DNA of 64,000 nucleotides from Thermobifida halotolerans (GTDB taxonomy: Bacteria > Actinomycetota > Actinomycetes > Streptosporangiales > Streptosporangiaceae), in assembly GCF_003574835.2 (NCBI RefSeq), contig NZ_CP063196.1:372001-436000 (forward strand), given 5' to 3'. The notes beneath the pieces were generated by a model. That model had not been told where the DNA came from, did not search any database, and worked only from the letters and a program-made list of their open reading frames with translations. The translations under genes were made by a program, and so were the position numbers. Shown in pieces: positions 14,141 to 40,240 of the stretch; positions within the stretch are counted from its first letter, which is position 1, and each line of letters starts with the position of its first letter.

Positions 14141-14243
14141 TCGGGTCTTCTCCTCCCGCGTGTCCGGTCGCGTTGTGCACAGGTGACCGGAAACGGCGCC
14201 GTCAATCACCCCGAAGCGGAATCTTTTCCGCGATCGTGGGAGA

Positions 14244-14277
14244 ACCGGTGCCGGACCCGGACGGGTCCGGCACCGGT
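14244..14277 (-). terminator. Terminator after manganese catalase
   Basis: Perfect 15-bp arms (14244-14258, 14263-14277) with a 4-base loop lie 39 bases after the catalase stop on the minus strand. Confidence 0.75.
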
Positions 14278-14315
14278 GCGCCGACGGGAGGCACGGCCTC
14301 CCGTCGCGGGTGGGC

Positions 14316-25816: not shown

Positions 25817-25899
25817 CCGCATCCCTCCCCGATACCCCGTGTGACCGGCCACAGCATCCCGGACACGCCCGTTTTTGCCCCTTCGACGACGCAGTGTTT

Positions 25900-25913
25900 G
25901 AGAAGCGCTTCTC
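25900..25913 (+). promoter_or_regulatory. LacI-type palindrome before the heptose operon
   Basis: GAGAAGCGCTTCTC is a perfect 14-bp palindrome with a central CG, the form bound by LacI-family regulators. It lies 43 bases before the carbamoyltransferase start. It shares the AGCGCT core of the CelR box but not its TGGG/CCCA ends. The regulator is unknown. Confidence 0.55.
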
Positions 25914-25956
25914 TTGGTAGTCGATGGTCCGATACGAGGCGAGAGGGGACGACCTG

Positions 25957-27603
25957 ATGCGATTCCTCGGCGTCAACGCCGTTTTTCACGATCCGGCCGC
26001 TGCGCTCGTCATCGACGGGCGGATCGTGGCGGCGGCCGAAGAGGAGCGGTTCAGCAGACGCAAGCACGGCAAGGAGGCCGTTCCGTTCTCCGCGTGGGAG
26101 CTGCCCGTCCAGGCCATGCGGTGGTGCCTGGAGGAGGCCGGGATACGGGCCGAGGAACTCGACGCCGTCGGCTACTCCTACGATCCCGCGCTCGTCGTCC
26201 CCGACGGCCCCGGCCAGGACCCGTCCTGGGAGAAGCTGCGCACCCTGTACGCCCGGCGCGCCCCCGCGTTCCTGGCCACCGCCCTGCCCGGACTGGACCC
26301 GGCCCGGGTACGGCACATCCCGCACCACGTGGCGCACGCCGCCTCCGCCGGACTGGCCGCCCCGCCCGCGGACGGCAGCGCCGACAGCGCCGTGTTCGTC
26401 GCCGACGGCCGCGGCGAGGACGCCTGCCACCTGGCCGGGGTCTACACCGGCGGACGCCTGGAGGTGCTGGCCCGCCAGGAACTGCCGCACTCCCTGGGGC
26501 TGATGTACGAGAACCTCACCGCGCACCTGGGATTCCGCCGCTCCAGCGACGAGTACAAGGTCATGGCGCTGGCCTCCTACGGCCGCCCCCGCATGCTCGC
26601 GGAACTGCGCGACCTGGTCCGCTACGAGGGCGACGGGCGCGTCCACGTCGCCGACATCGACTTCAACGCCCTCGCCAAACGCCGCGACCCCGGCCAGGAG
26701 CACACCACCGACCACGCCGACCTGGCCGCCAGCGTCCAGCGGCGGCTGGAGGAGGTGCTGCTGGACATCCTGGGCTGGCTGCACGAACGCACCGGGCAGA
26801 GCAGGCTGACCATGGCGGGCGGGGTGGCGCTCAACTGCGTGGCCAACACCCGGATCTTCCGGGAGAGCCCGTTCACCGACGTGTGGGTGCAGCCCGCCTC
26901 CGGCGACGCCGGGACGGCGCTGGGCTGCGCACTGCACCTGGCGGCCGAGGCGGGAGAGCCCGTCATCCCCATGCACGGCGCCGACCTGGGCCGCTCCTGG
27001 ACCGACGCGGAACTCGCCGCGGTCCTGGACGAGGCCGACATCGCCTACGAGCGCCCCGACGACCTGGCCGACGTGGTCGCCGACGCGCTGGCCCGCGACG
27101 CGCTCGTCGCGTGGTTCCAGGGGCGCGCCGAGTTCGGACCGCGCGCCCTGGGCCACCGCTCCCTCCTCGCCCACCCGGGCGACGCCGCCAACCTGGAACG
27201 CCTCAACCGGGTCAAGGGCCGCGAGCAGTTCCGGCCCGTGGCGCCGATGGTGCTGGCCGACCGGGCCGCCGAGATCTTCTCCGCCGGGCCGCTGCCCAGC
27301 CCGTACATGCTCTTCGTGCACGACGTCGCCTCCGAGTGGCGCGACCGGATTCCCGCGGTGGTGCACGTCGACGGCACCGCCCGCGTCCAGACCGTGGACG
27401 CCGCCGCCGAACCGCTCGTCGCCCGCCTCCTGGAGCGTTTCGAAGCCCGGACCGGCCTGCCGGTACTGGTCAACACCAGCCTCAACACGGCGGGACGGCC
27501 CATGGTGGACTCCCCGCGCGACGCCCTGGAGTGCTTCGGCTCCGCCCCCGTGGACCTGCTCGTCCTCGGCCCCCTCGTCGTCCGACGGCACGGGAGGAGC
27601 TGA
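25957..27603 (+). CDS. Carbamoyltransferase (NodU/CmcH family)
   Basis: The product has 548 residues. The N-terminal Kae1-like domain starts MRFLGVNAVFHDPAAALVID, with EEERFSRRKHGK and the metal-binding HHVAHAASA; the middle shows ENLTAHLGF and YKVMALASYG; AGGVALNCVANTRI and GDAGTALGCAL follow. The C-terminal domain has FGPRALGHRSLLAHP and LPVLVNTSLNTAGRPMVDSP, typical of the carbamoylphosphate-using half. Such enzymes form carbamoyl-AMP and carbamoylate a sugar or antibiotic hydroxyl. As first gene of the heptose operon it probably decorates the glycan or its precursor. The start at 25957 has GAGAGGGG upstream; a longer start at 25924 lies too close to the palindrome. Confidence 0.92.
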   Translation: MRFLGVNAVFHDPAAALVIDGRIVAAAEEERFSRRKHGKEAVPFSAWELPVQAMRWCLEEAGIRAEELDAVGYSYDPALVVPDGPGQDPSWEKLRTLYARRAPAFLATALPGLDPARVRHIPHHVAHAASAGLAAPPADGSADSAVFVADGRGEDACHLAGVYTGGRLEVLARQELPHSLGLMYENLTAHLGFRRSSDEYKVMALASYGRPRMLAELRDLVRYEGDGRVHVADIDFNALAKRRDPGQEHTTDHADLAASVQRRLEEVLLDILGWLHERTGQSRLTMAGGVALNCVANTRIFRESPFTDVWVQPASGDAGTALGCALHLAAEAGEPVIPMHGADLGRSWTDAELAAVLDEADIAYERPDDLADVVADALARDALVAWFQGRAEFGPRALGHRSLLAHPGDAANLERLNRVKGREQFRPVAPMVLADRAAEIFSAGPLPSPYMLFVHDVASEWRDRIPAVVHVDGTARVQTVDAAAEPLVARLLERFEARTGLPVLVNTSLNTAGRPMVDSPRDALECFGSAPVDLLVLGPLVVRRHGRS

Positions 27604-27604
27604 C

Positions 27605-29137
27605 ATGCCGCAGCCGGACTACGCGGTGGTCGTCCCCACCGTGGGACGCCCCACCCTGGAACGCGCCCTGCGTCCGCTCCTGGCGGCCGACCCCGTCGAC
27701 GCGCCGACCGAGATCGTCGTCGTCGACGACCGGCTGGAGCCCGGACCGCTGCCGCTGCCCGAGTCGCCGCTGCTGCGCCTGCTGCGCTCCGGCGGCAACG
27801 GACCCGCCATGGCCCGGGAGCTCGGCTGGCGGGCCACCGGCACCGAATGGGTGGCCTTCCTCGACGACGACGTGGAACCGCCCGCGGACTGGCCCGCCAG
27901 GCTCCGCGCGGACCTGGCGGGACTGCCCGGCGACGTGGCGGGCAGCCAGGGGCGGATCGAGGTGCCCGTCCCAGAGGGGCACCGGCCCACCGACGCCGAG
28001 CGCGCCACCCTGGCGCTGCGGGACGCGCGCTGGATCACCGCGGACATGGCCTACCGGCGCGCCGCGCTGGAGGAGGTCGGCGGATTCGACCCGAGGTTCA
28101 CCCGCGCCTACCGCGAGGACACCGACCTGGCGCTGCGCGTCATGGACGCCGGGTACCGCCTGGTGCGCGGCGACCGGGTGTGCGCCCACCCGCTGCGCTC
28201 GGGCGGACGCTGGGCGAGCCTGGCCGCCCAGCGCGGCAACGCCGACGACGTGCTGATGCGGCGGCTGCACGGTCCCCGCTGGCGCGACCGTGTGGGGGAG
28301 CGGCCCGGCAGGTTCCGCTGGCACGTGGCGACCACCGCGACCCTGGCGGGAGCCGTCGCCGCCGCCGCCACGGGACGGCGCCGCCTCGCCGCCGCCCTGG
28401 GCGCGGTCTGGCTGGCCCGTACCGCCGAGTTCACCTGGCGGCGGGTCAGCCCCGGACCGCGCGACGCCGCCGAGATCACGGACATGGCCGTCACCAGCGC
28501 ACTCATCCCGCCGCTGGCGTGCTGGCAGCGCCTGCGCGGCGAGCTGCGCGCCGCCCGCCTCCTCGCGGGCGAGTCCCGCATCCGGGCGGTCCTGTTCGAC
28601 CGCGACGGCACCCTCGTCGAGGACGTGCCCTACAACGGCGACCCCGAGAAGGTGCGTCCGGTGCCCGCCGCGCGCGCCGCCCTGCGGCTGGCCCGCAACG
28701 CGGGCCTGCGGGTGGGCGTGGTGAGCAACCAGTCGGGGATCGCCCGCGGGCTGCTCACCCGCGAGCAGGTCGACGCGGTCAACGCCCGCGTCGACGAACT
28801 CCTCGGCCCCTTCGACGTGTGGCGGGTCTGCCCGCACGGCGACGGCGACGGCTGCCGCTGTCGCAAGCCCGCCCCGGGGATGATCGAGGACGCCGCCGCC
28901 GCGCTGGGGCTGCGTCCTCGCGACTGCGCGGTCGTCGGCGACATCGGCGCCGACGTGGCCGCCGCCGCGGCCGCCGGAGCCCGGGGAGTGCTCGTGCCCA
29001 CCGCGGCCACCCTCGACACCGAACGCCACGCCGCCCCCGAGACGGCGACCGACCTGGTCGACGCCGTGCAACTGCTGATCGACGCGGGTGCGTCCAACAG
29101 AGCGGAGGGACGGGTTTGGTTTCCGTTTCGCGGCTGA
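27605..29137 (+). CDS. GT2 glycosyltransferase fused to GmhB-like HAD phosphatase
   Basis: The product has 510 residues and two enzymes in one chain. Residues ~1-230 are a GT2 (GT-A) domain: YAVVVPTVGRPTLERALRPL, EIVVVDDR, AFLDDDVEPP and a YREDTDLALRVMDAG acceptor-side segment. A short hydrophobic linker follows. From about residue 325 comes an HAD-IIIA phosphatase: FDRDGTLVEDVPYNGDPEKV (Asp332 and Asp334), VVSNQSGIARGL, a CPH...CRCRKP zinc loop and GDIGADVAAA. This matches D,D-heptose 1,7-bisphosphate 7-phosphatase (GmhB), the second step of ADP-heptose synthesis. It starts 1 base after the carbamoyltransferase stop. Confidence 0.9.
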   Translation: MPQPDYAVVVPTVGRPTLERALRPLLAADPVDAPTEIVVVDDRLEPGPLPLPESPLLRLLRSGGNGPAMARELGWRATGTEWVAFLDDDVEPPADWPARLRADLAGLPGDVAGSQGRIEVPVPEGHRPTDAERATLALRDARWITADMAYRRAALEEVGGFDPRFTRAYREDTDLALRVMDAGYRLVRGDRVCAHPLRSGGRWASLAAQRGNADDVLMRRLHGPRWRDRVGERPGRFRWHVATTATLAGAVAAAATGRRRLAAALGAVWLARTAEFTWRRVSPGPRDAAEITDMAVTSALIPPLACWQRLRGELRAARLLAGESRIRAVLFDRDGTLVEDVPYNGDPEKVRPVPAARAALRLARNAGLRVGVVSNQSGIARGLLTREQVDAVNARVDELLGPFDVWRVCPHGDGDGCRCRKPAPGMIEDAAAALGLRPRDCAVVGDIGADVAAAAAAGARGVLVPTAATLDTERHAAPETATDLVDAVQLLIDAGASNRAEGRVWFPFRG

Positions 29138-30357
29138 CACCACACAATCCCGACGCGCGCGAGCCGAGCCCGCGACCGCAGGAGTGGACCGCCGATCCGC
29201 GGCGCCCGTCCACCGCGACCCGGCGCCGCCGCCCGCCCTCCCGGCGGCGCACCCCGCCCGCCCCCGTCGCCTGCGGGCACGCCCACCCGCTGCGTCCCAG
29301 ACCCGTCCCGCAGAGCGCCGGACCTCCCCCGGGGGAGGGGGGAGACGGAAGAACCGTCCTGGTCGCCCGGATGGACAGCATCGGCGACGTGCTGCTGGCC
29401 GGTCCCGCGATCAGGGCCGTGGCGCGCACCGCCCGACGGGTGGTCGTGCTGGCGGGGCCGCGGGGCGGCGCCGCGGCCCGGATGCTGCCCGGCGTGGACC
29501 GGGTCATCGAGTGGTGCGCCCCGTGGATCGACCCCGACCCGCCGCCCGTGGAACGCGCCGAGGTCGACCTGCTGTGCTCCCAGGTGCGCGCCGAACGCCC
29601 CGACGCGGCGCTGATCCTGACCTCCTTCCACCAGTCGCCGCTGCCGCTGGCCCTGCTGCTGCGCCTGGCGGGGGTGCCGTGGATCGGCGCGGTGAGTGTG
29701 GACTACCCCGGAAGCCTGCTCGACCTGCGCCACCGCGTCCCCGACGGCATCCCCGAGGCGGAGCGCATGCTGTCGCTGGCGGAGGCCGCCGGATACCGGC
29801 TCGAATCGAACGACCCCGGACGGCTCGCCGTGCGCCGCCCCCTGCCCGACACCACCGCCCTGACCGGGCCGGACGGGTACGTGGCGGTGCACGTGGGCGC
29901 GTCGGTGCCCGCACGGGAGCTGCCGGTGCCCCTGGCGACCGAGGTCACGGCGCGGCTGAGCGCGTCGGGAATCCGGGTGGTGGTGACCGCCTCGGCCGAG
30001 GACAAGGGGGAGGCGGCGACCGTCGCCGAAGCCGGGGGAGCCGACCTGGCCGGGCGCACCGACCTGCCGGAACTCGCCGACGTCCTGGACCGCGCCGCGG
30101 TGCTGGTCGCCGGGAACACCGGCCCCGCCCACCTGGCCGCCGCCGTGGGAACGCCCGTGGTCTCGCTGTTCTCCCCGGTCGTGCCCGCCTCGGCGTGGGC
30201 GCCCTACGGCACCCCGCTGCGCCTGCTGGGCAACCAGACGGAGCGCTGCGCCGGAAGCCGCGCCAGGGTCTGCCCGGTACCGGGACACCCCTGCCTGAAC
30301 TCGGTCACCGCCGACGAGGTCGTGCGGGCCGTCCGCGAACTCATGGAGGGACGATGA
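29116..30357 (+). CDS. Glycosyltransferase family 9, heptosyltransferase-like
   Basis: The core from about residue 80 reads TVLVARMDSIGDVLLAGPAI, AAVHVG-type donor loop (YVAVHVGASVPARELPVPLA), then AAVLVAGNTGPAHLAAAVGT and VVSLFSPVVPASAW, the GT9 signature. It would transfer heptose from ADP-heptose. The start is uncertain. No ATG or GTG lies upstream of the core in frame; a TTG at 29116 with GGAGGGA upstream overlaps the previous gene by 22 bases and gives an unusual Arg/Pro-rich leader of ~80 residues (ATRRRRPPSRRRTPP). An ATG inside the conserved motif (29371) would remove essential residues. The last residues overlap the next ATG. Confidence 0.8.
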   Translation: MVSVSRLTPHNPDAREPSPRPQEWTADPRRPSTATRRRRPPSRRRTPPAPVACGHAHPLRPRPVPQSAGPPPGEGGDGRTVLVARMDSIGDVLLAGPAIRAVARTARRVVVLAGPRGGAAARMLPGVDRVIEWCAPWIDPDPPPVERAEVDLLCSQVRAERPDAALILTSFHQSPLPLALLLRLAGVPWIGAVSVDYPGSLLDLRHRVPDGIPEAERMLSLAEAAGYRLESNDPGRLAVRRPLPDTTALTGPDGYVAVHVGASVPARELPVPLATEVTARLSASGIRVVVTASAEDKGEAATVAEAGGADLAGRTDLPELADVLDRAAVLVAGNTGPAHLAAAVGTPVVSLFSPVVPASAWAPYGTPLRLLGNQTERCAGSRARVCPVPGHPCLNSVTADEVVRAVRELMEGR

Positions 30358-31400
30358 CGCAGATCGGAGACCGCTGGCTGGCGCGCGCCGCGGTGGGTGC
30401 CAGACTCCACGCGGGGCCGCCGCCCCGGCGCACCCTGCGCATCCTGATGTGGCACGTGCACGGCTCGTGGACCACGTCGTTCGTGCACGGCGGCCACGTC
30501 TGCCTGCTGCCGGTCACCCCCGACCGCGGCCCCGACGGCAGGGGGCGCGCGGCCACCTGGACGTGGCCGGACAACGCCGTCGAGATCCCCCACGAGAAGC
30601 TGCGCCACACCGACGTGGACCTCGTCATCGCGCAGCGCCCCCACGAACTCGACCTGGCCGAGCGCCTGCTGGGCCGCCGCCCAGGCCGCGACGTGCCCGC
30701 GGTCTACGTCGAACACAACACCCCCAAGGGCGACGTTCCGCTCACCCGGCACCCGATGGCCGACCGCGACGACGTCACGGTGGTGCACGTCACCCACTTC
30801 AACGCCCTGTTCTGGGACTGCGGGCGCGCCCCCACCGCGGTGGTCGAGCACGGCGTCGCCGACCCCGGCCACCGCTACACCGGGGAGACGGAGCGGGCCG
30901 GGGCGGTGATCAACGAACCGCTGCGGCGCTGGCGGGTCACCGGAACCGACCTGCTGCCGCTGATCGCGCAGAGCGCGCCGCTGGACCTGTTCGGCATGGG
31001 CGTCACCGGGGTCCCCGCACGCCTGGGGCTGCCGCCCGACCGGCTGCGCGTCCACGAGGACCTGCCGCAGCACGCCATGCACGACCGGCTCGCGCGCTGC
31101 CGCGCCTACGTCCACCCCATCCGCTGGACCTCGCTGGGCCTGTCCCTGATCGAGGCCATGATGCTGGGCCTGCCCGTGGCGGTCCTGGGCACCACCGAGG
31201 CCTACGAGGCGGTTCCGCCGGAGGCCGGAATCGTCACGACCCGACCCGACCGCCTGCGCGCGGCGCTGCGCGACTTCCTCGCCGACCCCGACCACGCCCG
31301 CGCGGTCGGGGCGGCGGCCCGCGCCGCGGCCCTGCGCAGATACGGACTCGCCCGGTTCCACTCCGACTGGGACCGGTTGCTCCAGGAGGTGACACGGTGA
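30354..31400 (+). CDS. Glycosyltransferase (GT-B, GT4-like)
   Basis: The product has 348 residues. The first part has RILMWHVHGSWTTSFVHGGH and VYVEHNTPKGDVPL; the C-terminal half holds RLRVHEDLPQHAMHDRLARC, AYVHPIRWTSLGLSLIEAMM and LGLPVAVLGTTEAYEAVP, with the E-x7-E-like nucleotide-sugar motif of GT4 enzymes. HVTHFNALFWDCGRAPTAVV is the middle hinge. ATGA overlaps with the previous stop and GTGA with the next gene show tight coupling. In several actinobacterial clusters a related gene sits at the same place. The donor and acceptor are unknown. Confidence 0.82.
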   Translation: MTQIGDRWLARAAVGARLHAGPPPRRTLRILMWHVHGSWTTSFVHGGHVCLLPVTPDRGPDGRGRAATWTWPDNAVEIPHEKLRHTDVDLVIAQRPHELDLAERLLGRRPGRDVPAVYVEHNTPKGDVPLTRHPMADRDDVTVVHVTHFNALFWDCGRAPTAVVEHGVADPGHRYTGETERAGAVINEPLRRWRVTGTDLLPLIAQSAPLDLFGMGVTGVPARLGLPPDRLRVHEDLPQHAMHDRLARCRAYVHPIRWTSLGLSLIEAMMLGLPVAVLGTTEAYEAVPPEAGIVTTRPDRLRAALRDFLADPDHARAVGAAARAAALRRYGLARFHSDWDRLLQEVTR

Positions 31401-32662
31401 GGATCGCCATGGTCTCCGAGCACGCCAGCCCGCTGGCGGCGCTCGGCGGAGAAGACGCCGGGGGACAGAACGTCCACGTGGCCGAACTCTCCCAGGCGTT
31501 GGCGCGGCTGGGGCACGAGGTGGTCGTGTACACCCGGCGCACAGACGAGGAGTCACCCGATGACGTGACGATGGGCCCCGGTGTGCGGGTCCGTCACGTG
31601 CGCGCCGGCCCCGCCGAGGAGATCGGCAAGGACGACCTGCCCCAGCACATGCCGGAGTTCGCCCGGCAACTGCGCGCGGACTGGGCCCGCGACGTCCCCG
31701 ACATCGTGCACGCCCACTTCTGGATGAGCGGCATGGCGTCGCTGAACGCCGCCCAGGACGCGGGCGTCCCGGTCGTGCAGACCTTCCACGCCCTGGGCGT
31801 CACCAAACGCCGCCACCAGGGGGTCGCCGACACCAGCCCCACCGAACGCATCGCCATCGAGCGGTCCGTGGCGCTGCGCTCCGACCTGATCATCGCCACC
31901 TCCACCGAGGAGCAGCGGGAACTCCGTTCCTGGGGGGTGCGGCCCGACCGGGTCCAGGTCGTGCCCTGCGGGGTCGACCTGGACCGCTTCACCCCCGAGG
32001 GGCCGCGCGCGCCGCGCGGCGACCGGCCGCGCGTGGTCAGCCTGGGCCGCCTGGTCGAACGCAAGGGCGTGGAGACGGTCATCCGGGCGCTGACCGCGGT
32101 CCCCGAGGCCGAACTCCTCGTCGCCGGAGGCCCCGAGGCCCACCTGCTGCGCACCGACCCCGAGGCGGTGCGCCTGCACCGGATCGCCCGGGAGGTCGGG
32201 GTGGCCGACCGGGTCTGCTTCCTGGGCCGGGTGGCGCGCGAGGACGTCCCGGCGCTGCTGCGCTCGGCCGACGTCTCCGTCAACGTCCCCTGGTACGAAC
32301 CGTTCGGCATGAGCACGGTGGAGGCGATGGCCTGCGGCGTCCCGGTCGCCGCCTCCGACGTCGGAGGCCACCGGGACACCGTCGTGCACGAGGTCACCGG
32401 CCTGCTCGTGCCGCCGCGCGCCCCCGAGACGCTCGGCGCGCGGCTGCGCACCCTCCTCGGCGACGTCGTCGCGGCCGAGAGCTACGGGATCGCCGGGGCC
32501 GACCGGGCCGCGGCCTGCTTCTCCTGGGAGTTCGTGGCGCACCGCACCGAGGAGTGCTACACCGAGGCGCTGCGCCTGGCACGCCACCCCTCCTTCGCCC
32601 CCGACCTGCCCCGGGTCCGCCCCCACGTCCTGACCGGTCCCAACAGCTTGAGGGGGGAGTAG
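31397..32662 (+). CDS. Glycosyltransferase family 4
   Basis: The product has 421 residues of a GT4 enzyme. The N-terminus VRIAMVSEHASPLAALGGED then AGGQNVHVAELSQALARLGH is the sucrose-phosphate-synthase-like donor loop; HAHFWMSGMA follows. The C-terminal domain shows RVVSLGRLVERKGVETVIRA, VNVPWYEPFGMSTVEAMACG (the E-x7-E motif) and VPVAASDVGGHRDTVVHEVT. The start is GTG at 31397, overlapping the previous stop. These enzymes are retaining and often use NDP-glucose, NDP-mannose or ADP-linked donors. It is part of the glycan-building set of this operon. Confidence 0.9.
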   Translation: MRIAMVSEHASPLAALGGEDAGGQNVHVAELSQALARLGHEVVVYTRRTDEESPDDVTMGPGVRVRHVRAGPAEEIGKDDLPQHMPEFARQLRADWARDVPDIVHAHFWMSGMASLNAAQDAGVPVVQTFHALGVTKRRHQGVADTSPTERIAIERSVALRSDLIIATSTEEQRELRSWGVRPDRVQVVPCGVDLDRFTPEGPRAPRGDRPRVVSLGRLVERKGVETVIRALTAVPEAELLVAGGPEAHLLRTDPEAVRLHRIAREVGVADRVCFLGRVAREDVPALLRSADVSVNVPWYEPFGMSTVEAMACGVPVAASDVGGHRDTVVHEVTGLLVPPRAPETLGARLRTLLGDVVAAESYGIAGADRAAACFSWEFVAHRTEECYTEALRLARHPSFAPDLPRVRPHVLTGPNSLRGE

Positions 32663-32664
32663 CC

Positions 32665-33258
32665 ATGCACGCCCACCTGGAGGAACTACGGGCGGCACTG
32701 GAGGCCACCGACACCGGACGCGTCGAGGAGTGGGGGCGCGTCGCGGCCGCCGCGCTGCGCTCCGGCCACCGCCTCTTCGCCTGCGGCAACGGAGGCAGCG
32801 CCGCCGAGGCCCAGCACCTCACCGCGGAGCTGACCGGACGGTTCGAGAGCGAGCGCCGTCCCCTGTCGGCCATCGCCCTGCACGCCGAGACCTCCAGCGT
32901 CACGGCCATCGCCAACGACTACGGCTACCGCCAGGTCTACGCGCGGCAACTGCGCGCCCACGCCCGCCCCGGCGACATCCTGGTGTGCCTGTCCACCAGC
33001 GGAACCAGCGACAACGTCATCGCCGCGGCCCTGACCGCCCGGGAGCTCGGCGTCACCTGCTGGTCCCTGACCGGGGGCGCGCCCAGCGCACTGGCCGCGG
33101 CCAGCGACGAGACCGTGGCGGTGCCCACCACCCGCACCTCCACGGTCCAGGAGGTCCACCTCGCGCTGGTCCACCTGTTCTGCGAGGCGGTCGACGCGGC
33201 GCTGGCCCCGGTCGGTCTGCTGGCCCGGACCGCGGGCAACGGGGAGGCGCGCGCATGA
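32665..33258 (+). CDS. Sedoheptulose-7-phosphate isomerase (GmhA-like SIS protein)
   Basis: The product has 197 residues of a SIS fold. ACGNGGSAAEAQHLTAELTG and FESERRPLSAIALHAETSSV match phosphoheptose isomerase, and so do NDYGYRQVYARQL, LVCLSTSGTSDNVIAAALTA and TSTVQEVHLALVHLFCEAVD. GmhA converts sedoheptulose 7-phosphate to D-glycero-D-manno-heptose 7-phosphate, the first committed step toward ADP-heptose. The start at 32665 has GGGGGGAG upstream and lies 2 bases after the previous stop; the longer ORF from 32554 overlaps the GT4. The last bases overlap the next ATG. Confidence 0.92.
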   Translation: MHAHLEELRAALEATDTGRVEEWGRVAAAALRSGHRLFACGNGGSAAEAQHLTAELTGRFESERRPLSAIALHAETSSVTAIANDYGYRQVYARQLRAHARPGDILVCLSTSGTSDNVIAAALTARELGVTCWSLTGGAPSALAAASDETVAVPTTRTSTVQEVHLALVHLFCEAVDAALAPVGLLARTAGNGEARA

Positions 33259-34649
33259 CCGGCAGGACGGGACCGCTGGTGGTGATCGGAGACGCCCTGC
33301 TCGACGTCGACCTGAACGGTGTCTCCCGCCGCGACTGCCCCGACGCGCCCGGCGCGCCCGTGGTGGAGGACGCGCGCGTCCGGCACCGCCCCGGCGGGGC
33401 CGCCCTGGCCGCCTGGTGCGCCGCGCTGCGCAACCGCCGGGTCGTGCTGGTCACCGCGCTGGGCCACGACGCCGCGGGTGTCCGCCTGGCCGAACTGCTG
33501 GGCGACGCGGTGTCCCTGGTGACCCTCCCCCTGCTGGGCCGCACCCCGGTCAAGACCCGCGTCCGCGCCGACGGTCGCACCGTGGCCCGCCTCGACGAGG
33601 GAGCGGGTCGGGCCGCGCTCACCGCGTCGACCGCGCGGCTGGCCGAGGTGCTCGACAGCGCGGCGGCGATCCTGGTCTCCGACTACGGACGCGGCCTGAC
33701 CGAACTCGCGGAGGTGCGCCGACTCCTCGCCGAACGCGCCGCGACCACACCGATCGTGTGGGACCCGCACCCGCGCGGCTCCGATCCCGTGCCGGGCGCG
33801 CGTCTGGTCACCCCCAACGCGGCCGAGGCGGGAGGCGCCGACGGCGACCCGCGCGCCGTGGCGCTGCGGGCCGCGGAGCTGGCGGAGCGGTGGCGCGCCG
33901 GGTCGGTGGCGATCACCCTCGGAGCGGACGGCGCGGTGTGGGCGGACGCCCGCGGCGACCACCGCCGCGTCACCGCCGAGCCCCTGTCCGACCCCGGTGA
34001 CGTCTGCGGCGCGGGAGACGCCTTCGCGGCGCACACCGCGGGCGCGCTGGCTGACGGCGACGACCCCGCGCGGGCCGTCGCCCGCGGCGTGGCCGGGGCC
34101 ACCGAGTTCGTGCGCGCGGGCGGCGCCGCGGCGGTGGGCGGGGCCGCGGCCGGATTCGACCCCCAGCCGTCGGCCCTGGCGGTGACCCCCGGCGGTGACG
34201 CCTTGGCCGTGGCCGAGGAGGTGCGCTCCCGCGGCGGCCGGGTCGTGGCGGCCGGAGGCTGCTTCGACGTCCTGCACGCCGGACACGTCAGCCTGCTGCG
34301 CAGGGCCCGCTCCCTCGGGGACTGCCTCGTCGTGTGCCTCAACGGCGACGCGTCGGTGCGCGCCCTCAAGGGCCCCGACCGGCCGCTGGTGGGCCAGCAC
34401 GACCGCGCGCACGTCCTGTCGGCGCTGGAGTGCGTGGACGCGGTGTGGATCTTCGACGAGGAGACCCCGCTGGACGCGCTGGAACGCCTGCGTCCGGACG
34501 TGTGGGTCAAGGGCGGCGACTACACGCCCGACGAACTGCCCGAAACCCCGGTGGTGCGCCGCCACGGCGGGGAGGTGGTGTGCCTGCCGCTGCTGCCCGG
34601 GCGCTCCACCAGCGGTCTGGTGGAGTCCGTGCGCGCCACCTCCCGCTGA
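33255..34649 (+). CDS. Bifunctional heptose-7-P kinase / heptose-1-P adenylyltransferase (HldE-like)
   Basis: The product has 464 residues. The first ~300 residues are a PfkB/ribokinase domain: VVIGDALLDVDLNGVSRRDC, RHRPGGAALAAW, SDYGRGLT, and DPGDVCGAGDAFAAHTAGAL with the catalytic Asp of the GAGD motif. From about residue 330 a cytidylyltransferase-type domain follows: GGCFDVLHAGHVSLLRRARS, LNGDASVRALKGPDRPLV and WVKGGDYTPDELPE. Together they phosphorylate heptose 7-phosphate at C1 and, after GmhB acts, make ADP-heptose. ATGA overlap couples it to gmhA. This completes the pathway within the operon, as gmhA, hldE and gmhB-like genes are all present. Confidence 0.92.
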   Translation: MTGRTGPLVVIGDALLDVDLNGVSRRDCPDAPGAPVVEDARVRHRPGGAALAAWCAALRNRRVVLVTALGHDAAGVRLAELLGDAVSLVTLPLLGRTPVKTRVRADGRTVARLDEGAGRAALTASTARLAEVLDSAAAILVSDYGRGLTELAEVRRLLAERAATTPIVWDPHPRGSDPVPGARLVTPNAAEAGGADGDPRAVALRAAELAERWRAGSVAITLGADGAVWADARGDHRRVTAEPLSDPGDVCGAGDAFAAHTAGALADGDDPARAVARGVAGATEFVRAGGAAAVGGAAAGFDPQPSALAVTPGGDALAVAEEVRSRGGRVVAAGGCFDVLHAGHVSLLRRARSLGDCLVVCLNGDASVRALKGPDRPLVGQHDRAHVLSALECVDAVWIFDEETPLDALERLRPDVWVKGGDYTPDELPETPVVRRHGGEVVCLPLLPGRSTSGLVESVRATSR

Positions 34650-34705
34650 CCCGGCCCCGAAGCCCCGTCCGACCCGAAGTGACGAACCGACAGAAGGGAA
34701 ACGCG

Positions 34706-35392
34706 ATGCGCCCGTTGGGAAACACGCTGATCACCGGTGGCGCCTCCGGCCTGGGAGCCGCCGTGGCCCGAGCCGTGGCGGACGAGGGGGGCACCCCGCT
34801 CGTCATCGACATCCACCACCCCGGCGAGGAGTGGCCGTTCGTCAAGGCCGACCTGGCCGACCGGACCGCCACGGAGAACGCGGTCGGGGAGTTGGCGGCC
34901 CGGGCGGGCGGCATCGACGCGGTGGTCAACGCCGCCGGGACCGACGCCTGCGGACGCCTGGAGGACGTGCCCGCCGACGACTGGGAGCGGGTGGTCCGCG
35001 TCAACCTCCTCGGCACCGCCGCGGTGGTGCGCGCCGCGCTGCCGCACCTGCGCGCCAGCGGCGGCACGATCGTCGACTGCGCCTCCACGCTGGGGCTGCG
35101 CGCCCTCAGCGACGCCACCGCCTACTGCGCCTCCAAGTTCGGGGTCGTCGGGTTCACCCGGGCGCTGGCCGCGGAGCTCGCCGGGCAGGTCGGGGTGACC
35201 CTGCTGGTTCCCGGCGGCATGGACACCGCGTTCTTCGACGGCCGCAGCGAGCAGTACAAGCCCGGCCCCGACGCCAAACTCAACCGGCCCGAGGACGTGG
35301 CGAACGCGGTGCTCTTCGCGCTGCGCCAGCCGTCCGGCTGCGAGGTCCGCGAACTCGTCATCTGCCCCTCGACGGAGACGTCCTGGCCGTGA
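34706..35392 (+). CDS. Short-chain dehydrogenase/reductase of the heptose operon
   Basis: The product has 228 residues. GGASGLGAAVARAVADEGGT is the cofactor loop; D-I-H-H after strand 2 suggests NAD(H). NAAGTD, the catalytic Ser in DCASTLGLRA and YCASK complete the SDR set. It would oxidise or reduce a sugar carbon, for example to modify the heptose or another NDP-sugar of the cluster. It starts 56 bp after the hldE-like stop with AGAAGGG upstream, so an operon is likely. The substrate is unknown. Confidence 0.85.
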   Translation: MRPLGNTLITGGASGLGAAVARAVADEGGTPLVIDIHHPGEEWPFVKADLADRTATENAVGELAARAGGIDAVVNAAGTDACGRLEDVPADDWERVVRVNLLGTAAVVRAALPHLRASGGTIVDCASTLGLRALSDATAYCASKFGVVGFTRALAAELAGQVGVTLLVPGGMDTAFFDGRSEQYKPGPDAKLNRPEDVANAVLFALRQPSGCEVRELVICPSTETSWP

Positions 35393-35466
35393 CTCCCATC
35401 CGAGGACCCCGCCGCCGCACCGACGCGGGTCGCGGCGGCGGGGACGGACCCTGTGAGGAGGCCCGA

Positions 35467-36441
35467 ATGGCACCCACCACCCTGGTGACCGGAGGAGCCG
35501 GATTCATCGGCTCCCACCTGTGCGAACGACTCTTGGACGAGGGCATGGACGTGGTGTGCGCGGACAACTTCGCCACCGGCAGCGCCGCCAACGTCGCCCA
35601 CCTGCTCGACCGCGGGAACTTCCGCCTGGTCGAGGCGGACCTGACCGAACCCGTGGACCTGGACGAACCCGTCGACCTCGTCTTCCACCTGGCCTCCGCC
35701 GCGTCGCCGCGGGACTACCTCCGGCTGCCGGTGGAGACCCTGGAGGCGGGCAGCCTGGGCACCCGCAACGCCCTGCGGCTCGCCGAGGAGCACGGCGCCC
35801 GGTTCGTCCTCGCCTCCACCAGCGAGGTCTACGGCGACCCGCTGGAGTATCCGCAGCGCGAGAACTACTGGGGAAACGTCAACCCGGTGGGCCCGCGCAG
35901 CGTCTACGACGAGGCCAAACGCTACGCCGAGTCGCTGACGATGGCCTGCCACCGCGCGCACGGCACCAACGTGGGGATCGCGCGGATCTTCAACAGCTAC
36001 GGTCCCAGACTGCGCCCCGGCGACGGCCGCGTCATCCCCACCTTCATCCGCCAGGCGCTCGACGGCGAACCGCTCACCGTCGCCGGTGACGGCCGCCAGA
36101 CCCGCTCGGTCTGCTACGTCGACGACACCGTGGCGGGACTGCTCGCACTGGCCCGCAGCGACCTGACCGGGCCGGTCAACATCGGCAGCGACGAGGAACT
36201 GTCGGTGCTGGCCCTGGCCGAACTCGTCAAGGAGGTCACCTGCTCCAACTCGCCGATCGTCTTCGTCGACCGGCCGGAGGACGACCCGCGGTTCCGGCGG
36301 CCCGACATCACCCTGGCCCGGACCAGCCTCGGCTGGCGGCCGCGGGTGCTGCTGGAGGAGGGGCTGCGCCGCACCGTCGACTACTTCCGCAGGGAGCGGG
36401 GCCTGCCGCCCATGTCCGAGCGGGTCGTTCCGGTGAACTGA
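35467..36441 (+). CDS. NAD-dependent sugar epimerase/dehydratase (UXS-like extended SDR)
   Basis: The product has 324 residues of an extended SDR. TGGAGFIGSHLCERLLDEGM is the NAD loop, FHLASAASPRDYLRLPVETL and STSEVYGDPLEYPQRENYWG are the segments that in UDP-glucuronate decarboxylases surround the active site, and YDEAKRYAESL holds the Tyr-x-x-x-Lys pair. The C-terminal half has RIFNSYGPRLRPGDGRVIPT and ARTSLGWRPRVLLEEGLRRT. The substrate is an NDP-sugar, perhaps UDP-glucuronate or ADP-heptose; this cannot be decided by eye. GAGGAGG lies before the ATG at 35467. It would supply a further sugar for the glycan. Confidence 0.88.
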   Translation: MAPTTLVTGGAGFIGSHLCERLLDEGMDVVCADNFATGSAANVAHLLDRGNFRLVEADLTEPVDLDEPVDLVFHLASAASPRDYLRLPVETLEAGSLGTRNALRLAEEHGARFVLASTSEVYGDPLEYPQRENYWGNVNPVGPRSVYDEAKRYAESLTMACHRAHGTNVGIARIFNSYGPRLRPGDGRVIPTFIRQALDGEPLTVAGDGRQTRSVCYVDDTVAGLLALARSDLTGPVNIGSDEELSVLALAELVKEVTCSNSPIVFVDRPEDDPRFRRPDITLARTSLGWRPRVLLEEGLRRTVDYFRRERGLPPMSERVVPVN

Positions 36442-36522
36442 CCGCCTCCGCGCGGACGGTAGGCGCCCGCGCACGCGGGTAGTCGTGATCACCGGGGGAC
36501 CAGACCGAGGAGGGGGACACGG

Positions 36523-37401
36523 GTGAAGCAGAACCGGGAGACGGCAGGACGGGTCACCGTCGTCATCGCCACCCGCAACCGCCGGGAGGAACTGCACCGG
36601 ACGCTGCGCCGACTGGCGCGGCTGCGCCCCCGGCCGCCGGTGGTCGTCGTGGACAACGCCTCCACCGACGACACCGCCGAGTCGGTGCGCGCGCTCTTTC
36701 CCGAGACGCAGGTGGTGTCGCTGGCCCGCAACATCGGAAGCGCCGCGCGCAACATAGGGGTGTCGCTGGCCCGCACCCCGTACGCGGCGTTCTGCGACGA
36801 CGACTCCTGGTGGGAGCCCGGAGCGCTGGAGCGCGCCGCCGACGCCTTCGACGCCCATCCCCGCCTGGGACTCGTCGCGGCCTCGGTCAGCGTCGGCGAG
36901 GACGCGCGGCCCGACCCCATCAACGCGCAGTTGGCCGACGGGCTGGGCACCGTGCCCGGCCTGCCGGGCCCGCGCGTCCTGGGGTTCATGGCGTGCGCGT
37001 CGGTCGTGCGCGTGGCGGCGTTCGAGGAGGTGGGCGGGTTCAACCCGCTGCTGTTCTTCGCGGGGGAGGAGACCCTGCTCGCCCTGGACCTGGCCGCCGC
37101 CGGGTGGGAGCCGTGCCATCTGCCCGAGGTGTGGGCGCATCATCATCCCTCCACCCAGCGGCCGCCCGGTCCGTGGCGGCGGCGCCTGGAGGAGCGCAAC
37201 GCGGTGCTGACGATGTGGCTGCGCCGCCCCTGGGCGCGGGCGCTCGGCGCGACCGCGGGCCTGGCCCGGCGGGGGCTGCGGGACGCACCGGCCCGCCAGG
37301 CCCTCGGCGACGTGCTGCGCGGCATGCCGCGGGTGCTCGCGGCCCGGCACCGTCTGCCGCCGTCGGTGGAGAACGACATGCGCGTGCTGGAGACGCGGTG
37401 A
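36523..37401 (+). CDS. GT2 glycosyltransferase, first of a tandem pair
   Basis: The product has 292 residues and starts with GTG at 36523, with GAGGAGGGGG upstream. VTVVIATRNRREELHRTLRR, VVVVDNASTDDTAESVRALF and FCDDDSWWEPGALERAADAF give the GT-A fold and the D-D-D metal motif; AGEETLLALDLAAAGWEPCH is the ED-type acceptor segment. The next gene is a paralogue of about equal length with the same motif set, so the pair arose by duplication. Such rhamnosyl- or mannosyltransferase-like enzymes add a single sugar to a growing glycan. Confidence 0.88.
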   Translation: MKQNRETAGRVTVVIATRNRREELHRTLRRLARLRPRPPVVVVDNASTDDTAESVRALFPETQVVSLARNIGSAARNIGVSLARTPYAAFCDDDSWWEPGALERAADAFDAHPRLGLVAASVSVGEDARPDPINAQLADGLGTVPGLPGPRVLGFMACASVVRVAAFEEVGGFNPLLFFAGEETLLALDLAAAGWEPCHLPEVWAHHHPSTQRPPGPWRRRLEERNAVLTMWLRRPWARALGATAGLARRGLRDAPARQALGDVLRGMPRVLAARHRLPPSVENDMRVLETR

Positions 37402-38297
37402 GCGCCGAGCCGCGGGTCGGCGTCGTCGTCATCACCCACCAGCGCCGCCCGGAGGTGCTGCACACCCTGCGCAGACTCCGCGACCTGCCCGAGTCGCCCC
37501 CCGTCGTGGTGGTGGACAACGCCTCCACCGACGGCACCGCCGAGGCGGTGGCGGCGCAGCACCCCGAGGTCGCGCTGATCCGCGCCCCCGTCAACCTGGG
37601 GGCGGTGGCCCGCAACATCGGCGTGGAGGCGCTCGACACCCCGTACGTGGCGTTCTGCGACGACGACACCTGGTGGGAGCCGGGGTCGCTGGAGCGCGCC
37701 GCCGACCTGCTCGACGAGTTCCCCCGGATCGGCTGTCTGACCGCGCGCATCGTCGTCGAGCCGGACGGCCGGGAGGACCCCATCACCCCGGAGCTGCGCC
37801 ACTCTCCGGTGCCGGGGCCGCCGGAGCTTCCGGGCCCGGCCCTGCTGAGTGTGCTGGCGGGCGCGTCGGTGTTCCGGGTGAGCGCGTTCACCGAGGCGGG
37901 CGGGTTCTCCCCGAGGCTGTGGCTGGGCGGGGAGGAGGAGCTGCTCTCCCTGGATCTGGCCGCCGCCGGATGGTGGCTGTGCTGGATCGAGGACATGGTC
38001 GTGCACCACGCCGCCTCCCGCAGGCGCGACAGCCGCGTGCGCCGCCGCCTGGGCATCCGCAACACGCTGTGGACGGCGTGGCTGCGCCGCCCCCTGGGCG
38101 GGGCGCTGCTGCGCACCGGCGCGGTGCTGCGCGCCGTGCCCAAGGACGCGGCCAGCGCCCGGGCACTGGCCGCGGCCGTCGCGGGGCTGCCGTGGGTGCT
38201 GCGGGAACGGCGCCCGGTGCCCCGCGAGATCGAGCGGGGACTGCGCCTGCTGGCCGAACCGCAGCGCCACTCCCGAGCTCGCCGCTACGTGGGCTGA
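37398..38297 (+). CDS. GT2 glycosyltransferase, second of a tandem pair
   Basis: The product has 299 residues, with GTG at 37398 overlapping the previous stop. VGVVVITHQRRPEVLHTLRR, VVVVDNASTDGTAEAVAAQH and FCDDDTWWEPGSLERAADLL align throughout with the preceding gene; GGEEELLSLDLAAAGWWLCW is the acceptor-side motif. The two proteins diverge in the C-terminal ~70 residues, which suggests different acceptors. This is the last gene of the operon; GC-rich hairpins follow. Confidence 0.88.
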   Translation: MSAEPRVGVVVITHQRRPEVLHTLRRLRDLPESPPVVVVDNASTDGTAEAVAAQHPEVALIRAPVNLGAVARNIGVEALDTPYVAFCDDDTWWEPGSLERAADLLDEFPRIGCLTARIVVEPDGREDPITPELRHSPVPGPPELPGPALLSVLAGASVFRVSAFTEAGGFSPRLWLGGEEELLSLDLAAAGWWLCWIEDMVVHHAASRRRDSRVRRRLGIRNTLWTAWLRRPLGGALLRTGAVLRAVPKDAASARALAAAVAGLPWVLRERRPVPREIERGLRLLAEPQRHSRARRYVG

Positions 38298-38329
38298 GGC
38301 CCGCCCCGGGGGTGTCGGCATCGACGTGA

Positions 38330-38358
38330 GTGGGGCCGTGAAGCGCGAGTGCGGCCCC
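38330..38358 (+). terminator. Possible terminator after the heptose operon
   Basis: GGGGCCG (38330-38336) pairs with CGGCCCC (38352-38358) around 15 bases, 33 bases after the last stop. This is a modest stem. Confidence 0.35.
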
Positions 38359-38388
38359 CTGGTGTCAAGATCAACGAGGGGGACGCGG

Positions 38389-38443
38389 GGTATTCCGCCT
38401 GGGCCTCAGGGGTGGGGCACCGCTGGGGTCGGGGTGGAATGCC
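38389..38443. repeat. GGTATTCC-type hairpin, copy 1
   Basis: GGTATTCCGCC (38389-38399) can pair with GGTGGAATGCC (38433-38443). A related hairpin lies at 41689-41734 and a single arm at 42788-42800. The remainder of the gap 38298-38658 holds no recognisable gene. Confidence 0.45.
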
Positions 38444-38658
38444 GTGGGCTGGTCGGCGCGGAGTCCTACGGCCGGTGCTCGCCAGGCGGCCGTCAGACCT
38501 CGGTCGGAGCGCGCCGTGTGCGCTCCGAAGAACACCGGCCACCATTGAACGCCCGAGGGTTTCCCGTTTCGGAAAACATTCATGCTTGTCTTCCAGGGCA
38601 GGGGCTTCTAACGTCGTGGCATGAAATCCCGAATCCTGTCGGAGGGAGAGCGGCCCCC

Positions 38659-38836
38659 GTGCGTCTGACCAGGATCGACGGAACGTACAGTCTACGCAAC
38701 TGACCGAGGAACGTACGTGATCCAGGGGTACGTGGTCAGCGACAGCGAGATGGCGGGTCAAGTGGACCTTCCTCAGGGGGAGACCGCTGTCGAGGTTCCC
38801 CGGGAACTCCTTGAGAGGGTCGCCCGTGATCTCTGA
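38659..38836 (+). pseudogene. Small partner gene of DUF6879, apparent frameshift
   Basis: GTG at 38659 begins VRLTRIDGTYSLRN and then meets a stop. One frame over, the text TVYATDRGTYVIQGYVVSDS and EMAGQVDLPQGETAVEVPRE continues to a stop at 38834-38836. As I recall, actinobacterial DUF6879 genes are commonly preceded by a ~65-residue protein of just this two-part sequence, so the two halves belong together and one base appears to have been gained near 38680-38700. It overlaps the DUF6879 start. A sequencing error would look the same. Confidence 0.55.
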
Positions 38837-39350
38837 GGAAGAGCTCGCAGAATACTTCGCTTCGTTCACGTCATCGGCTTTCCGACTGGAGACACTCGAC
38901 ACGTACCGTGTCGCAGAGGAAGCCGAATACTTCGACCGTTTCCTTTCCGGCGGGGATTTCCCCGAGGAGTGGCGGCACAACCCCTGGGTCCGCAGCATCA
39001 CCAGCACCGGGAGAAGGCTGCGACGAGTCCGCGTTCTCACTCCTCCACTGAGTGATTACCTGAGGTTCCAACTCTCTTGGGGCTACCCCGGAAACGTCAG
39101 GGACGGCGAGGAGATCAGTATCCTCAACCTCTCCGACCACCCCGTCCCAGACCTTCCAGATCATGATTTCTGGCTCTTCGACGAGAAGACGGTCCTCAGG
39201 ATGCACTACACCGGGACCGGTGAGTTCCTGGGCGCCGAGCGCATCGACGAAGACTTGACCGCCGAGTATTTGGGATACCGCGACAAAGCGCTCGCCGCCG
39301 CCGTTCCCTACACCGATTACTGGGACCGCGTCCACCACGATGTCGAGTGA
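38826..39350 (+). CDS. DUF6879-family protein
   Basis: The product has 174 residues from GTG at 38826 (VISEEELAEYFASFTSSAFR), with GAGAGGG upstream. TLDTYRVAEEAEYFDRFLSG, WVRSITSTGRRLRRVRVLTP, DYLRFQLSWGYPGNVRDGEE and DFWLFDEKTVLRMHYTGTGE are the conserved blocks of DUF6879, as I know it. These proteins accompany XRE-DUF5753 and DUF397 genes in actinobacteria, a regulatory module related to the WhiJ/BldB-type systems. The molecular function is unknown. Confidence 0.8.
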   Translation: MISEEELAEYFASFTSSAFRLETLDTYRVAEEAEYFDRFLSGGDFPEEWRHNPWVRSITSTGRRLRRVRVLTPPLSDYLRFQLSWGYPGNVRDGEEISILNLSDHPVPDLPDHDFWLFDEKTVLRMHYTGTGEFLGAERIDEDLTAEYLGYRDKALAAAVPYTDYWDRVHHDVE

Positions 39351-39400
39351 CGAGAGCAGCGATCTCGCGGCCGTTTCCCGTTTGAGGTAGGCCGTCCCGG

Positions 39401-40240
39401 TCAGTGCGGGGGTTGTCGGCCGGTGAGGTGGGGTTGGATGCGGTTGCGCACGGCGGTCTTGCTGAGGCCGACGGTCTCGGCGATGGCTTTGAGGGTTTCG
39501 CCTGCCTGGTAGCGGCGGGCGAGTTCGGTGTCGGGGATGCCGATGTCCTTTCTGCGGTGGCGGGGGTGGGGGACGGGCGCGCCGCGTCGGGCGCGTTGGC
39601 GTTGGCGCAGTCGCAGGACGGTTCCGGTGACGGTGCGGCGGCCGTGGGTGTGTTTGCCGCGCACGTCGTGGCCCCACGGGCGGGACGGAATCTCGTGTTG
39701 GTGCCACAGGGCGAGGAAGGCTCGGCGGGCCTGGGAGAGGGCGGAGACGAAGCTGTGGTACTTCAGGCCGACGGCTTCGGCGGCTCGGGTGTGGTCGTCG
39801 TGGGCGGCCAGGGCGAGCAGGACCCGGCGGTGGCGGGGGCGCAGGGCGGGCCAGATCTGGGCGAGGGCGAGGCGTTCGACCACGCCGGGTTCGGGGCTGG
39901 GGTGGGGGTTGGCGGCGAGGGCCCAGTAGCGCTCGAAGCCGGGGCGGGTGACGGTGTCGTAGCCGGGGTGCCAGCCGCGGAAGGAGCAGTCGGCGCGGGC
40001 GGCGTCTCTGATGGCGTTCCAGGCGACGCGCAGGAGTTCGTGGCGCTGCGGCGGGGTGTCGGTGGCGTAGAGGTGGGTGGTGATGGCCTCCCACGCGGTT
40101 TCGGTGCGCACCTGCCGGTTGAGGTGGCTGCGGTGGTAGGCGGTGGCGGCGGCGGTCGCGGCGATGTCGTCGAGTTCGGCGAGGCTGTAGCCGAAGCGCA
40201 GGGGTTCGCGGCGGGCGTCGAGGGTGTCGGGTGCGGGCAT
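39401..40240 (-). CDS. Sigma-region-4-like DNA-binding protein with a second HTH
   Basis: The product has 279 residues beginning MPAPDTLDARREPLRFGYSL. Residues ~125-190 (IWPALRPRHRRVLLALAAHD, DHTRAAEAVGLKYHSFVSAL, SQARRAFLALWHQHE) resemble sigma factor region 4. The C-terminus (DIGIPDTELARRYQAGETLK then AIAETVGLSKTAVRNRIQPH) is a Hin-recombinase-like helix-turn-helix. A region 2 for the polymerase core is not evident; the N-terminal helical part is unassigned. A mobile-element or plasmid regulator is possible, as similar proteins occur on such elements. The start at 40240 follows the best methionine; the SD is weak. Confidence 0.6.
   Translation of the reverse strand: MPAPDTLDARREPLRFGYSLAELDDIAATAAATAYHRSHLNRQVRTETAWEAITTHLYATDTPPQRHELLRVAWNAIRDAARADCSFRGWHPGYDTVTRPGFERYWALAANPHPSPEPGVVERLALAQIWPALRPRHRRVLLALAAHDDHTRAAEAVGLKYHSFVSALSQARRAFLALWHQHEIPSRPWGHDVRGKHTHGRRTVTGTVLRLRQRQRARRGAPVPHPRHRRKDIGIPDTELARRYQAGETLKAIAETVGLSKTAVRNRIQPHLTGRQPPH

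Follow-up and report, generated by a model that had tools for sequence, protein, structure and literature searches.

In Streptomyces coelicolor, the cwg ("cell wall glycan") operon (sco6179-6190) is a 12-gene unit induced by sigma-E and vancomycin, described by Hong et al. 2002 as cited in PMC6767563, PMC5839063, PMC5882110 and PMC13011467; in the accessible passages of these citing papers its product is still termed predicted or putative. We analyzed a stretch of 64,000 nucleotides from the 5.5-Mb genome of Thermobifida halotolerans (bases 372001-436000 on contig 1, hereafter the window), which contains an eleven-gene operon at 25957-38297 on the forward strand. By sequence comparison, this cluster is a local variant of the cwg operon of Streptomyces, a system already known. 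An earlier note on this DNA had pointed to similar gene sets in other actinobacteria with no defined product; both points hold, but the system already had its name.

We favor, with moderate confidence, the reading that this cwg-type operon builds a carbamate-bearing oligosaccharide of heptose and probably xylose, which is most likely put on the envelope. What this analysis adds to the known system is the identity of the local cluster, a xylose branch, an expected stereochemistry, a hint of a phosphorylated acceptor, a widespread core and a candidate promoter.

Gene layout and identity with cwg

The eleven-gene set proposed earlier stands: all frames are present, backed by frame-specific G+C (about 0.85-0.98 at the third position of the expected frame across the eleven genes), start-site context and translation, and the spacing fits, with intergenic gaps of at most 81 bases and overlaps in five pairs given a GT9 start at 29116. 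Family scans gave the domain order carbamoyltransferase, GT2 plus GmhB-type HAD phosphatase, GT9, GTx, GT4, GmhA, HldE, short-chain dehydrogenase (SDR), NAD epimerase/dehydratase-type, GT2, GT2, in agreement with the earlier claim that GT9-family enzymes and a carbamoyltransferase share one operon with heptose genes. The second GT9 gene that had been placed nearby at 22949 was confirmed; as the cwgJ counterpart it is therefore counted as part of the system. The features are:

22949-23974, reverse strand: second GT9 glycosyltransferase, cwgJ (sco6188) counterpart (Pfam GT9 101.7 bits)
25894-25919, forward strand: promoter-like element GTGTTT-N16-GGTA, with the palindrome GAGAAGCGCTTCTC in the spacer (25900-25913; pattern scans)
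25957-27603, forward strand: O-carbamoyltransferase, cwgB counterpart (PF16861 220 bits, PF02543 174 bits)
27605-29137, forward strand: GT2 fused to GmhB-type heptose-1,7-bisphosphate phosphatase, cwgC plus cwgD counterpart (family scans, motifs)
29116-30357, forward strand: GT9 heptosyltransferase-family enzyme, cwgE counterpart (PF01075 78.7 bits; TIGR02193 61.9/185.3 bits)
30354-31400, forward strand: GT4-like glycosyltransferase (GTx), cwgF counterpart (family scan, structure model)
31397-32662, forward strand: GT4 of the sucrose-phosphate synthase (SPS)/MshA type, cwgG counterpart (sequence comparison)
32665-33258, forward strand: GmhA sedoheptulose-7-phosphate isomerase, cwgH counterpart (family scans, motifs)
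33255-34649, forward strand: two-domain HldE kinase/nucleotidylyltransferase, cwgI counterpart (family scans, motifs)
34706-35392, forward strand: SDR, outside the Streptomyces cwg set (family scan)
35467-36441, forward strand: predicted UDP-glucuronate decarboxylase (UDP-xylose synthase, UXS), cwgA counterpart (best-family match, motifs)
36523-37401, forward strand: GT2 glycosyltransferase, cwgK counterpart (family scan, L113 homologue)
37398-38297, forward strand: GT2 glycosyltransferase, cwgL counterpart (family scan, L113 homologue)

The GT9 start is probably the TTG at 29116, an uncertain call, and the GT9 family scans were run from 29251. No terminator past 38297 was found in the scanned region 38200-39450.

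The assignment to cwg was made through a locus of S. coelicoflavus (L113), which stands in for S. coelicolor in the twelve-protein comparison and which we take to be from its close kin: the row order there fits the cwg labels, a near-copy of the cwg promoter is found and a deacetylase gene is divergent as at sco6178. The L113 row is EPI-CBM-GT2-HAD-GT9-GTx-GT4-gmhA-hldE-GT9-GT2-GT2, and 12/12 window functions were matched at 49-69% identity. The published cwg promoter was detected as a 29-base match with 3 mismatches (0 in 100 shuffles) 161 bases upstream of the called start, compared with the published 147 bases for sco6179. As this match overlaps the divergent gene at its called 5' end, its conservation is perhaps partly coding. 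The published sco6178 promoter is discernible nearby by eye, and the divergent gene encodes a polysaccharide deacetylase, matching what is published of sco6178. Eight available S. coelicolor annotations (sco6180-6183 and sco6185-6188: transferases, "dehydratase", phosphoheptose isomerase, bifunctional enzyme) are consistent with their positions, including the heptosyltransferase label of sco6183 at the GT9 position. The window does not have a single 12-gene unit in cwgA-L order, and rearranged gene order was also detected in other actinobacterial clusters.

Predicted heptose, xylose and chain assembly

The presence of GmhA, GmhB and HldE with intact motifs supports a complete pathway to nucleotide-activated (NDP-) heptose. 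The full enzyme set claimed in the earlier note was thus recovered by family and motifs, but its restriction to ADP-heptose is uncertain. The enzyme names rest on the best family and intact motifs because most equivalog cut-offs were not reached: GmhA scored 180/276 and 158/209 bits with NCBI models, and HldE 246/521 bits, with its kinase domain at 102/345 and its nucleotidylyltransferase domain above the cut-off (183 vs 181.5 bits). The phosphatase half scored 110 bits with the beta-heptose GmhB model (cut-off 178) versus 34 bits with the alpha model (cut-off 250). The motif residues, presumably catalytic, are invariant in 41/41 related clusters for GmhA (H51/E55/Q162/H170) and GmhB (D332/D334/C409/H411/C417/C419), and HldE keeps GAGD and HxGH in 42/42, the window being included and short gene calls excluded.

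The HldD 6-epimerase is required only for the L,D form of heptose. HldD (TIGR02197) was above its cut-off in 0/36 cluster-bearing genomes (own-genome best 89.8/274.6 bits) and in 2/14 control genomes, which argues that the heptose should remain D-glycero-D-manno. The (F/L)XXGRSTT motif has been tied to the use of ATP, CTP and UTP in the accessible text of PMC11573728. In the window, HldE carries LLPGRSTS, which differs from this motif by one letter, and the motif is variable among relatives; the resemblance suggests that the nucleotide may be more than ADP alone, with CDP- or UDP-heptose possible.

The gene previously called an epimerase is, judged by best family and motifs, a UDP-glucuronate decarboxylase: its score was 341.7 bits with chains of human-type UDP-glucuronate decarboxylase 1 and 143.2 bits with the next family, and S119/E120/Y147/K151/R213, which we take to be active-site residues, are kept in 28/28. 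An HldD identity for this gene was rejected (69.4/274.6 bits). UDP-glucose-type dehydrogenase was above its cut-off in 36/36 cluster genomes and also in 13/14 controls, so its presence alone tells little; it adjoins the cluster in 4/4 searched genomes of family f4 (G038, G050, G074, G096). The carbamoyltransferase resembles antibiotic-pathway enzymes, its PDB relatives including GdmN, TobZ and the novobiocin enzyme.

The GT4 is closest to T. elongatus SPS (TeSPS, 257 bits), then to MshA (172 bits), and is below the MshA equivalog cut-off (249.9/462.5 bits). Two of the four MshA phosphate contacts are kept in the window GT4, and the positions of Tyr110 and Thr134 are F and A. GT4 residues K78 and R151, unchanged in 41/41 relatives, align (offset anchored at His158) with TeSPS Arg105 and Arg178, the two residues that PMC7264703 describes as binding the acceptor phosphate; H131 and E301, also unchanged in 41/41, match two TeSPS residues whose mutation abolished activity in the same source. 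The conservation of both acceptor-phosphate positions suggests, as moderate evidence, that the GT4 acceptor is probably phosphorylated, whether soluble or lipid. The GTx model (pLDDT 81, pTM 0.80) has a GT4-type fold; its nearest folds were PimB', BshA, GlgM and tll1591 at 15-18% identity, with PimB' at the top and PimA also close, and this predicted neighbourhood does not settle the acceptor choice.

In the proposed scheme, UXS would convert UDP-glucuronate to UDP-xylose, the GT4 would begin or lengthen a chain with a phosphorylated molecule as its acceptor, heptose would be added by the two GT9s and other sugars, probably including xylose, by GTx and the three GT2 domains, and the carbamoyltransferase would carbamoylate the chain. 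The UDP-xylose, glycosyl-transfer and carbamoylation steps would all be cytosolic, and the finished oligosaccharide would most likely be set on the cell envelope by unlinked genes, in an envelope/osmotic stress response.

Distribution of the cluster and its upstream element

The survey drew on 40 hldE-containing loci of 20 kb, 20 from the phylum and 20 from the order; the phylum loci were drawn from the best hldE matches, so that hldE is present there by selection, and some reach contig ends. HldE (E<=1e-40) was detected in 35/296 phylum genomes (27/199 genera), and GTx, the most cluster-specific protein, in 30/296 (24/199 genera) and in 104/150 genomes of the order (27/39 genera), with a patchy presence among three sampled congeners (present in G312, absent from G306 and G368). 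The named-genome scan with the GTx alignment confirmed at least 582 stretches; the top-scoring 80 were retained, and these are nearly all from Streptomyces because a Streptomyces sequence headed the GTx query.

GmhB, GT9, GT4 and gmhA were found in all 20 phylum loci, GTx in 19, and the carbamoyltransferase and GT2 in 17; a second GT9 homologue was present in 18/20 phylum, 12/15 order and 54/58 named loci. As judged from this gene content, a heptose core of ten functions is widespread, being common to many actinobacterial families, and UXS with the GT2 pair would be a lineage-dependent addition that provides xylose as an extra. A single reading frame encodes GT2 and GmhB in at least 19 of the 32 loci that have both (8/40 loci are without one or both). 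Because the fusion test read through stop codons, the 13 loci scored as "separate" include fused ones, and in L093, L096 and L106 the two form a single gene of about 500 residues. The SDR was detected at >=60% identity in 16/20 phylum and 10/15 order loci, and at 40-43% in three more phylum loci. At >=38% it was found in 0/58 loci of >=20 kb taken from the best 80 named-genome stretches, a few of which have SDRs at 26-37%. At the SDR site usual for most clusters, between hldE and cwgJ, L113 has Ala/Arg/Pro-rich low-complexity frames and no SDR (14212-14803).

The cluster is present in 15/20 order loci; in L072, L073, L074, L080 and L082 the surroundings of hldE are of another sort. Four loci of this same order, L072, L074, L080 and L082, have a distinct type of hldE (38-40% identical) in a different gene setting, and in L082 a GTGTTT-type element lies 36 bases upstream of it.

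In the window, GTGTTTGAGAAGCGCTTCTCTTGGTA at 25894-25919 precedes the carbamoyltransferase gene. The pattern (G/A)TGTTT-N14-17-GG(T/C)A has 21 occurrences in 46 loci plus the window, 14 of which are found 30-181 bases upstream of the carbamoyltransferase start as called. The element was detected in 24/95 related upstream regions (10/32 non-Streptomyces, 14/63 Streptomyces-side) versus 7/3800 pieces of 250 bases drawn at random from these loci, the loci behind these counts being related and not independent; among phylum loci outside the order and Streptomyces, it was found in L090 alone. In the T. halotolerans genome the strict 27-base pattern has a single occurrence, which on its own proves nothing because the backward-read control also occurs once, and the support for the element comes from its position before the carbamoyltransferase. 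By eye, GTGTTT-N16-GG(T/C)A resembles a promoter whose spacer is palindromic, and on this assumption translation from 25957 is preferred over 25924. We do not claim membership in the sigma-B general-stress regulon, as the tested sigma-B-like pattern was unmatched before the window operon. About 9 kb from the operon, the gene at 15739-16578 (reverse strand) encodes a sigma-70 family factor that has regions 2, 3 and 4, and related sigma genes were observed in 5/20 phylum and 1/20 order loci of 20 kb around hldE.

Elsewhere in the window, we observed a cytochrome P450 with a C-terminal DUF2795 domain (19728-21350, reverse strand) and an ARAGORN tRNA call with an unreadable two-base anticodon, possibly false (63188-63279, reverse strand).

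Destination of the product and comparison with known systems

The envelope is preferred as the destination because cwg is under sigma-E and vancomycin control in S. coelicolor, as described in the accessible literature. The earlier note had proposed a surface glycan, a glycoprotein or a secreted metabolite as the product, and the locus itself gives no sign of surface delivery. Several results weigh against the envelope oligosaccharide that we propose: none of the operon genes is a transporter, ligase, polymerase or membrane-bound initiating transferase by family scans; a simple hydropathy test of the window proteins revealed no clear membrane segment (a borderline stretch in GT9 lies within the conserved fold); the families that recur in the flanks include no recognised exporter, polymerase or ligase; no sigma-E-like site AAC-N15-19-(C/G)(G/C)TC occurs in the 240 bases upstream of the window operon; and the literature searched, partly available and covering few subscription journals, yielded no sugar structure, sugar chemistry or mutant data for the cwg product. 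As to xylose, UXS was present in just 6/20 phylum loci, GT2a in 4 and GT2b in 7, so xylose is not core. The flank survey, approximate since it used codon-usage gene calls on loci of at most 20-21 kb, found 20 families in at least 4/47 sequences (46 loci plus the window), nine of them non-cluster (by Pfam): pyruvyl transferase-like, sigma factor, aldehyde dehydrogenase, NAD epimerase, topoisomerase IB, UDP-glucose dehydrogenase, nucleotidyltransferase, metallophosphoesterase and Polyketide_cyc2, the last ("Polyketide cyclase / dehydrase and lipid transport") barely above its cut-off. The polysaccharide pyruvyl transferase-like gene (L111:18014-19072 and relatives) was observed in 5/6 gene-called Streptomyces-side loci, 3 order loci and 1 phylum locus, and the product may carry a pyruvyl group.

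Without a membrane segment or exporter, export would proceed via an unlinked system or the product would stay cytosolic. The latter leads to a rival reading, in our view rather unlikely, in which the product is a soluble, phosphate-primed, carbamoylated heptosyl oligosaccharide acting as a stress metabolite or protectant, following the logic of mycothiol and sucrose phosphate, and no wall polymer is made. It draws on the kinship of GT4 to SPS and MshA, the conserved K78/R151 at the TeSPS acceptor-phosphate positions (PMC7264703), the hydropathy and flank results, and the presence of BshA and the glucosyltransferase tll1591 among the GTx fold neighbours. Salt activates cwgA in S. coelicolor without sigE upregulation, as stated in the available text of PMC13011467, which keeps a metabolite in consideration. 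The sigma-E/vancomycin control in S. coelicolor speaks for the envelope, the F and A at two MshA phosphate contacts count against the soluble reading, and the top GTx fold is PimB', with PimA close. PimB' and PimA act on lipids, and lipopolysaccharide (LPS) core enzymes are soluble yet also act on lipid. That such a soluble, phosphate-primed, carbamoylated D,D-heptose stress metabolite, with xylose in some lineages, is made across Actinomycetota partly under a conserved non-sigma-E element is, if anything, slightly more doubtful.

We consider improbable a secreted specialised metabolite akin to the septacidin or bleomycin sugars. The operon presumably resembles the bleomycin sugar genes, but it has no scaffold-making gene by family scans, and this reading is not preferred because of the broad GTx spread in the order and phylum. 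Its precedent is the feeding of ADP-heptose into septacidin and spicamycin, given in the accessible part of PMC10948575. Heptosylation of secreted or surface proteins is the least probable reading: GT9 matches the autotransporter heptosyltransferase family weakly, at 23.5/200 bits and so far under the cut-off, seven glycosyltransferase domains plus a carbamoyltransferase would exceed the need, and the recurrent flanking families include no recognised acceptor protein.

In Streptomyces, cwg has served as an envelope-stress marker since 2002, and the gene-by-gene reading predicts D-glycero-D-manno-heptose, carbamate, xylose and a phosphorylated primer, turning the long-standing question of the cwg product into one open to direct sugar analysis.

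Taken together, the window shares GmhA, HldE, GmhB and the GT9 family with the LPS inner-core pathway (GmhA, HldE, GmhB, HldD, WaaC/WaaF), but window-type clusters are without HldD above the cut-off and have an extra carbamoyltransferase, UXS, GT4s and GT2s; lipid A is not known from such bacteria. With SPS and MshA, the window GT4 shares sequence, the catalytic His and Glu and both SPS phosphate positions (Arg105 replaced by Lys, Arg178 kept). Heptose enzymes in actinobacteria were already recorded as NDP-heptose synthetases (Tang et al. 2022, cited in PMC10948575; PMC11573728); those of Tang et al. are, by the title, three-domain enzymes, whereas the window isomerase and kinase/nucleotidylyltransferase are on separate genes. 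The closest system is cwg of S. coelicolor, all twelve functions of which are matched in the window, eleven inside 25957-38297 (two of them, cwgC and cwgD, as one fused gene) and the twelfth, cwgJ, about 2 kb upstream on the reverse strand. The gene-order comparison with Streptomyces suggested in the earlier note gave the same order from cwgB to cwgI, but cwgA is displaced to after hldE and the gained SDR gene, with cwgK and cwgL following, and upstream, where no sigma-E-like site was found in 240 bases, the window has a different promoter-like element.

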